A stretch of DNA of 64,000 nucleotides, from assembly GCA_025360815.1 (NCBI GenBank), contig JANYBL010000058.1:1-64000 (forward strand). Reading direction: 5' to 3'. Shown in pieces: positions 62,521 to 63,804 of the stretch. The stretch comes from Burkholderiales bacterium. Its GTDB lineage: Bacteria > Pseudomonadota > Gammaproteobacteria > Burkholderiales > Usitatibacteraceae. The number at the start of each line of letters is the position of its first letter. Position 1 is the stretch's first letter. The position numbers and the translations under genes were made by a program. The notes under the pieces were generated by a model. The model had not been told where the DNA came from. It did not search any database and was given only the letters and a program-made list of their open reading frames with translations.

Positions 62521-62548
62521 TTGAAAAAACGAAAAAACGCCGTATAAT
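62521..62548 (+). promoter_or_regulatory. Sigma-70-type promoter
   Basis: TTGAAA, a 16-base spacer and a perfect TATAAT lie about 350 bases upstream of comEA. A short 41-codon frame (62599-62724, MLSQAYEKIKHIETCRVYF) follows it, so the transcript may have a long leader, a small ORF or a small RNA. Confidence 0.6.
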
Positions 62549-62895
62549 CAGTGGGTTTTGTGATTTTTCTGTATGTTTTTCTGGTTGGTTTGGGCTGCAT
62601 GTTGAGCCAAGCATACGAAAAAATAAAACATATAGAAACCTGCCGTGTTTACTTCGTCAACCGTTCATCTTTAGCCCCGTTTGTAACAGTGCGTAACAAG
62701 GCTTTCAAGGCCTATCCAAGTTGAAGAGGCTGATATAAATGTTGGTATTTTCAATGCTGTGGAGGTCGTTCCAGCACCGATTGCCTTAATGTTCTGTTGT
62801 TTTGGTGTTCGGCGCGTAAAGCGTTTTCGTATTTACTTTTTATTTGCTTCCCGTTTTTTGCTTTGTAATTTTCACACTCACTCCAAGGAAAACTC
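62549..62895 (+). other. Long leader of the ComEA-like gene
   Basis: About 350 bases between the promoter and the ComEA-like ATG. It contains the 41-codon frame 62599-62724, for which I see no ribosome site and no known family. No riboswitch class is recognised. Confidence 0.35.
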
Positions 62896-63609
62896 ATGAA
62901 AAAAATCACCGCAATCATCTTGGCGTTTTTTGCCTCGATCAGTATCGCGTTTGCCGCCGTAAACGTTAACACCGCAACAAAGGACGAACTCGCTACGCTG
63001 AACGGTATTGGTCCGGCTAAAGCGCAAGCTATTATCGACTTCCGTACCAAAAACGGCCCATTTAAATCGTTTGCTGACATTGACAACGTTCCCGGTATTG
63101 GCGCAGGGACCATGGCCAAAATTGAAAAAGACGTAAGCTTGTCTGGTAAGACTACGGTTGTTGCAGTACCAGCCAAAGCTGATGCAAAAGCAGCGCCAGC
63201 CGCACCTGCAAAAGACGCAAAAGCTGACATGAAAGCTGACGCTAAAGCTCCCGCAGCGCCTGAAAAAGCTGCAGCGCCAGCCAAGAAAGACGAAAAAGCG
63301 ATGGCTGCTGATGCCAAGAAAGCAGACAAAAAAGAAATGAGCCCAGCTGACGAAAAGAAAGCAAAGAAAGAAGCTGCTAAAGCCGAAAAAGCCGCTAAAG
63401 CTGATGCTGCCAAGAAGGAAAAAGCAGACAAAGCCGCTAAAGCTGCTGAAGAGAAAAAAGCCAAAGCTGACAAAGCCAAAGCTGAAAAAGATGCCAAATC
63501 AGCAAAGCCAGCCGCTGACAAACCAGCTAAGAAAGACGACGCTAAAAAAGACGCACCAAAAGTTGATGCCAAGGCTGACGACAAGAAAGCCGATGCACCG
63601 AAGAAGTAA
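62896..63609 (+). CDS. ComEA-like helix-hairpin-helix protein with Lys/Ala-rich tail
   Basis: A 237-aa exported DNA-binding protein. The signal peptide MKKITAIILAFFASISIAFA is followed by a ComEA HhH domain (VNVNTATKDELATLNGIGPA and ADIDNVPGIGAGTMAKIEKD). ComEA binds incoming DNA in the periplasm during natural transformation. Residues from about 85 to the end are an unusually long tail of Lys, Ala, Asp and Pro (KKEAAKAEKAAKADAAKKEK) resembling histone H1/AlgP-type repeats. Typical ComEA-like proteins here are about 80-110 aa. An AAGGAAAA site precedes the ATG, and a strong terminator follows. Confidence 0.88.
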   Translation: MKKITAIILAFFASISIAFAAVNVNTATKDELATLNGIGPAKAQAIIDFRTKNGPFKSFADIDNVPGIGAGTMAKIEKDVSLSGKTTVVAVPAKADAKAAPAAPAKDAKADMKADAKAPAAPEKAAAPAKKDEKAMAADAKKADKKEMSPADEKKAKKEAAKAEKAAKADAAKKEKADKAAKAAEEKKAKADKAKAEKDAKSAKPAADKPAKKDDAKKDAPKVDAKADDKKADAPKK

Positions 63610-63680
63610 TATCGACGCTGGGTTTGAAGAAATCCAGCCGCGGCTTACGAGTCAACGCAATTTGAAGCAACTCAGAATCA

Positions 63681-63714
63681 ACAAAAAGCCCCGCAAATAT
63701 GCGGGGCTTTTTGT
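63681..63714. terminator. Bidirectional rho-independent terminator
   Basis: ACAAAAAGCCCCGC and GCGGGGCTTTTTGT form a perfect 14-base stem with loop AAATAT. It serves the ComEA-like gene and the convergent partial gene at the right edge. Confidence 0.95.
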
Positions 63715-63804
63715 TGGCAATTGGAGGATCGCTAGTTTTTGCTATCGCAAGTTTAGTGAATAATAATTTTTGCGCCATCAAGTTGATGCAACCGACAACC
63801 GTCC

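Follow-up and report, generated by a model that had tools for sequence, protein, structure and literature searches.

The window analysed here is a stretch of 64,000 nucleotides (positions 1-64,000, forward strand) of contig JANYBL010000058.1 from a Burkholderiales bacterium of the Usitatibacteraceae (GCA_025360815.1). At 62896..63609 on the plus strand it carries a comEA-like gene of 237 codons plus stop, which was recognised by matches to PF12836 and TIGR00426. A likely ribosome-binding site, AAGGA (62885..62889, +), can be read from the sequence 6 bases upstream of the ATG. Between hldD and comEA, a promoter-like TTGAAA-16-TATAAT element (11/12; 62521..62548, +) is suggestive at most; two promoter-like sites were found in the region vs 1.8 expected by chance. 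An intrinsic terminator, an 18-bp hairpin with a T run, lies 68 bases 3' of the stop codon (63678..63717, +) and folds at -31.1 kcal/mol (z -7.4). A search for structured RNA near comEA gave sub-threshold matches only, and these fall on the terminator hairpin. The antisense ORF over comEA (62751-63584, -; 277 aa) is a by-product, because in that frame no stop can arise opposite GCN, AAR, GAN, or CCN codons.

The protein begins with a putative Sec signal peptide (residues 1-20, MKKITAIILAFFASISIAFA, followed by A; 62896..62955, +, boundary at 62956), assigned by eye from a signal-peptide-like start and an apparent cleavage site between AFA and A. Residues A18, F19, and A20 are invariant in 16 aligned sequences. 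The HhH DNA-binding domain (residues 21-84; 62956..63147, +) starts directly behind it, with no N-terminal anchor or preceding oligomerisation domain. Over residues 21-79, this domain scores 68.2 bits against Pfam HHH_3 (PF12836; cut-off 27) and 67.8 bits against the ComEA HhH model TIGR00426 (cut-off 53.1), which bears out the first-pass annotation of a ComEA-like protein with a normal HhH domain; the full-length model TIGR01259 reaches 74.5, far under its cut-off of 152. The AF2 fold is confident (pLDDT 82-92 over most of the domain). Solved structures of ComEA rank among the closest matches, the best being Geobacillus ComEA (8dss). The hairpin motif reads G37 I38 G39 P40 A41 K42. By motif alignment, Lys42 (63019..63021, +) is equivalent to V. 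cholerae ComEA K63 (GIG+3), the main DNA-contact residue of that protein (PMC3879209), and the neighbouring K62 position is occupied by Ala. Lysine stands at GIG+3 in 128 of the 134 relatives that show the motif, and K42 is invariant in the 16-sequence alignment.

Genomic setting of comEA

On the 5' side of comEA, the genes run rpsA-ihfB-lapA-lapB-pyrF-ugd-hldE-hldD; cysM lies further downstream on the contig. Wherever the contig reaches, other family members have these genes in this order with comEA after hldD; the hldD-comEA arrangement is an old one shared by the family, not an operon. It had been remarked earlier that the gene sits beside LPS heptose genes and not beside competence genes. 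As a description of position this is true, and comEC and dprA do lie away from comEA; yet both are present in the genome (one comEC, dprA, and five secretins). The implied link to LPS falls away: the neighbourhood carries no weight because the position is conserved, comEA has a terminator of its own, and uptake genes are present in the genome. Judged by its domain, its key residue, and this gene complement, the window protein is the ComEA of the genome. It would be located in the periplasm, and the organism presumably takes up DNA.

Among 45 near-complete genomes, comEA was present in 25 of the 37 with comEC and in 2 of the 8 without it (Fisher p 0.045). Within the family, comEC is present and no ComEA orthologue was found in G011, G020, G022, and G024, while neither was found in G018 and G027; some of these assemblies are incomplete. 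Two other identities were considered and rejected. A defence system has no PADLOC match, and for a plasmid or phage origin the plasmid and phage matches cover the HhH domain only.

Composition and evolution of the tail

Behind the HhH domain follows a tail of 153 residues (85-237), which more than doubles the size of the protein, as first annotated. It contains 46 K, 0 R, 20 D, 10 E, 55 A, and 11 P, and carries a net charge of +16, or +0.10 per residue (46 K vs 30 D+E). The HhH domain has a net charge of 0; therefore, the tail supplies all of the net positive charge. Its charges are mixed far better than chance, and it is a finely charge-mixed, weakly basic polyampholyte. The original label, a 150-residue Lys/Ala tail, is correct in length and in Lys/Ala richness and omits the 30 acidic residues.

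The AF2 model divides the tail into three parts: a P/A-rich proximal part (residues 85-149; 63148..63342, +) predicted to be disordered (pLDDT <50 for 86-145), a middle part of K/A/E/D (residues 150-201; 63343..63498, +) predicted with moderate confidence to form a single helix (pLDDT ~70-78), and a charged distal part (residues 202-237; 63499..63606, +) predicted to be disordered. If disordered, the tail would have a radius of gyration of ~3.5 nm. The Pfam search and the AF2 model revealed no oligomerisation domain in the protein, and no other copy of the tail was found elsewhere in the genome. The helix pattern is kept in some relatives, not all. A conserved helix or coiled coil was rejected, as only 16 of 38 long tails have a Pro/Gly-free run that exceeds the shuffled controls; i/i+3,4 pairing is likewise inconsistent among long tails.

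The tail is neither a chance reading frame nor a product of mere DNA slippage, as its degenerate repeats, mixed codons, and conserved protein sequence show. A tandem-repeat scan of comEA returned short degenerate units only, and the synonymous codons of the tail are mixed. In close pairs, tail protein identity is 74-87% at a pS of 0.63-0.76 (synonymous sites near saturation) with pN/pS 0.10-0.25, compared to 42-47% identity and pN/pS ~0.5 for codon-shuffled tails realigned likewise. The tail is under purifying selection.

The protein ends in Lys236-Lys237 (63601..63606, +), a feature that emerged from the alignment and from end-residue counts. K236 is invariant in the 16 aligned sequences. A KK end occurs in 78 of 135 ComEA (58%; a count inflated by shared descent), vs 8.3 expected from tail composition, yet this end is kept while the preceding tail varies in length and sequence. 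Among other genes called at the same loci, 4/519 (0.8%) end in KK, and at least one of those four is itself a ComEA that got past the filter. At position -3, Lys is back down to 21%. Bacteria generally favour a C-terminal Lys by ~2.3-fold (PMC7246954), a bias that is too weak to account for the KK ends of ComEA.

A survey of 138 ComEA from the order and near relatives gave tail lengths between 0 and 210 residues. Short tails (<40), with much A, P, and K, are the most frequent, and long ones (>=100) are present in several families. In the 20 family members that have an orthologue, the tail is always 59-210 residues long, with fast variation within the window's genus (59-179), and in one of the 20 (L024) it is fused to a further HhH domain. 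In the public record, N. gonorrhoeae ComE has a short A/P/K tail of ~18 residues of the form ...PAPKGPAKPVLPAVKK that ends GAPAPKGPAKPVLPAVKK. Burkholderiales ComEA usually have a short A/P/K tail that ends in Lys-Lys, of which the window tail is, on sequence grounds, a lineage-specific expansion. The surveyed tails contain 2214 K and 46 R, vs 20% R in the HhH domain. Mean net charge climbs slowly, from ~+5 at 20-40 residues to ~+16 at >=180, because acidic residues rise alongside lysines in longer tails. In long Burkholderiales tails, the net-charge scatter around the trend has a residual SD of 1.9, vs 7.8 if residues are independent and 2.8 if they come in blocks of 40 (relatedness uncorrected), and local mixing is tight in the surveyed tails (variance in windows of 20 residues 1.33 vs 7.46 shuffled). 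Proline is richer in the proximal half of the tails and charge in the distal half.

In most gammaproteobacterial ComEA the tail is absent or very short. The tails in three gammaproteobacterial genomes (L230, L236, L224) are K/S-rich, 58-124 residues long, and carry net charges of +25 to +39; they are far more basic than, and unlike, the betaproteobacterial tails. Lys-rich tails on ComEA probably arose more than once, to judge by these sequences. Sec export as a general ceiling on net charge was also rejected: the gammaproteobacterial tails reach +39, so that the low betaproteobacterial net charge reflects no general limit, and TolA of the window's genome uses Arg.

Several related genes were encountered during the survey. 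The window's genome encodes a second secreted-looking HhH protein of 163 aa (L002:860-1351, -; contig C55), with a signal peptide, an A/P/K-rich linker, a single HhH, and a K-rich tail ending MKK; its gene adjoins tRNA-Phe and an integrase-like ORF. In genome G023 (L024 / L045:2772-3463), one ORF joins a ComEA HhH, a charged tail, and a second HhH of the L002 kind, and is cut by the contig end. Genomes of family f44 (L237, L238) have 3-4 near-identical comE copies near rRNA operons, and N. gonorrhoeae records place comE at four positions.

Possible roles of the tail

Some role with incoming DNA would be the most reasonable reading. Our preferred explanation, to which we give about an even chance, is that the tail strengthens the hold of ComEA on incoming DNA, as a reinforced Brownian ratchet. 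Soluble periplasmic ComEA would bind incoming double-stranded DNA non-specifically via its HhH domain; DNA bound in this way could not slide back out of the cell, and ComEA would hand it to ComEC. We infer every step that involves the tail. It would act as an arm that is long, flexible, charge-mixed, and only weakly basic, and its lysines would touch the DNA backbone weakly at many points and raise local affinity. These contacts may let adjacent ComEA molecules hold or bridge DNA, and a tail of this bulk would hinder the withdrawal of bound ComEA through the secretin. The acidic residues would keep the arm soluble, exportable, and weakly basic.

The reinforced ratchet is supported by the HhH domain with Lys42, the presence of comEC, dprA, and secretins, the family-wide tails, Arg avoidance, charge mixing, and purifying selection, as well as by the Lys-rich tails on gammaproteobacterial ComEA and the short KK-ended form in N. 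gonorrhoeae. Other observations speak against it. The first-pass annotation, which proposed that the tail could condense incoming DNA or bind anionic LPS, named short-tailed relatives of identical function as counter-evidence, and a survey of tail length largely found short tails: they are typical of most Burkholderiales ComEA, many relatives including Neisseria have tails of 10-40 residues, and many gammaproteobacterial ComEA have none. The tail, and a long tail in particular, is therefore not needed for the basic or core function of ComEA. With so low a net charge density, the tail need not bind DNA strongly, and tail length shifts quickly even within a genus.

Alternatively, the tail may be a nearly passive, low-complexity product of cheap repeat growth that selection on charge balance keeps soluble and exportable, doing nothing more than the short ancestral tail did. 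The family length range of 59-210, the repetitive sequence with frequent indels, the lack of a conserved helix pattern, and the fact that short-tailed relatives are the rule all fit passive expansion. However, the tail protein is conserved well above shuffled controls with synonymous sites near saturation, the tail was lost in no family member with comEA, Arg is avoided and net charge stays positive throughout, and separate Lys tails occur in Gammaproteobacteria; we consider passive expansion possible but on the whole somewhat unlikely. In Gram-positive ComEA, a second domain on a flexible linker condenses DNA, and linker length matters (PMC13168374). A tail that condenses or bridges incoming DNA would be the Gram-negative counterpart of the Gram-positive oligomerisation domain, with its DNA condensation and pulling force. 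The window protein has a long, flexible, charged arm, and the predicted helix might self-associate, but no oligomerisation domain or conserved helix pattern was found and net charge is low, which makes this role distinctly doubtful.

The Lys-rich arm, placed in the periplasm by the putative signal peptide, could also tether ComEA in the envelope via anionic LPS, the outer membrane, or peptidoglycan, with the C-terminal Lys-Lys possibly as a contact or attachment point. The excess of KK ends in ComEA (58% vs 0.8% of other genes) favours such a tether, whereas the LPS gene neighbourhood is an ancestral position rather than an operon, V. cholerae ComEA is freely mobile (PMC3879209), and C-terminal Lys is favoured across bacteria too, though far more weakly (PMC7246954). 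We regard a tether as very improbable.

To explain how DNA is pulled across the outer membrane, current papers invoke a bare-domain ComEA for Gram-negative bacteria. A bolder reading, unlikely as it is, would make Gram-negative ComEA more than a DNA-binding domain: betaproteobacterial ComEA would have a conserved C-terminal Lys-Lys arm, grown in several families to a charge-mixed tail of 100-210 residues that actively bridges or compacts incoming DNA, so that a disordered arm would do what oligomerisation does in Gram-positive bacteria. The natural series of tails from 0 to 210 residues, with its conserved KK end and regular charge pattern, could readily be used to test if it is affinity, bulk, or bridging that limits the ratchet.

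Comparison with known systems

Like AlgP, PhaF, and histone H1-like proteins, the window ComEA has a Lys/Ala/Pro-rich, low-complexity C-terminal tail of similar length (the AlgP repeat region is 154 aa). The resemblance to histone H1 or AlgP repeats proposed at first is sound for content and length and fails for charge. AlgP is intracellular, with a net charge of +55 and KPAA repeats (PMC9239181), whereas the window tail lies behind a putative signal peptide, has 30 acidic residues and a net charge of +16, and contains no KPAA array. No AlgP, PhaF, or histone H1-like Pfam match was found in the window protein, and no histone-H1-like Hc1 protein in the genome.

Domain II of TolA is likewise an A/K/E/D-rich helical stretch in the periplasm (helical by prediction in the window protein). 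TolA of the same genome (contig C118) has 10 R and 15 K in 83 residues; in contrast, the ComEA tail has 0 R and 46 K and lacks the TolA end domains, and Pfam and NCBIfam gave no TolA match to the protein. Lys passes Sec easily, unlike Arg (PMC9110029), and the choice of Lys over Arg, with lysines beside acids, suits Sec export. Sec alone does not account for the Lys preference, however, since Arg is used in TolA of the same genome.

Gram-positive ComEA (B. subtilis, G. stearothermophilus; 8dfk, 8dss) shares the HhH domain and an extra region on a flexible linker. The window protein differs in that it lacks both a transmembrane anchor and a folded oligomerisation domain, and its extra region is C-terminal, low-complexity, and charged. 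With ComEA/ComE of V. cholerae and N. gonorrhoeae it shares the signal peptide (putative here), the HhH domain, the GIG hairpin, the Lys at the K63 position, and the absence (apparent here) of a membrane anchor. N. gonorrhoeae ComE also has an A/P/K tail ending in KK, which is short. The tail has 153 residues here and ~18 or none there. Gram-negative ComEA is described as a DNA-binding domain alone in papers of 2022 and 2026 (PMC9747964, PMC13168374), and no paper on such ComEA tails was found in the literature searched. The long charged tail is a new form of the known protein ComEA, and its mechanism is testable.
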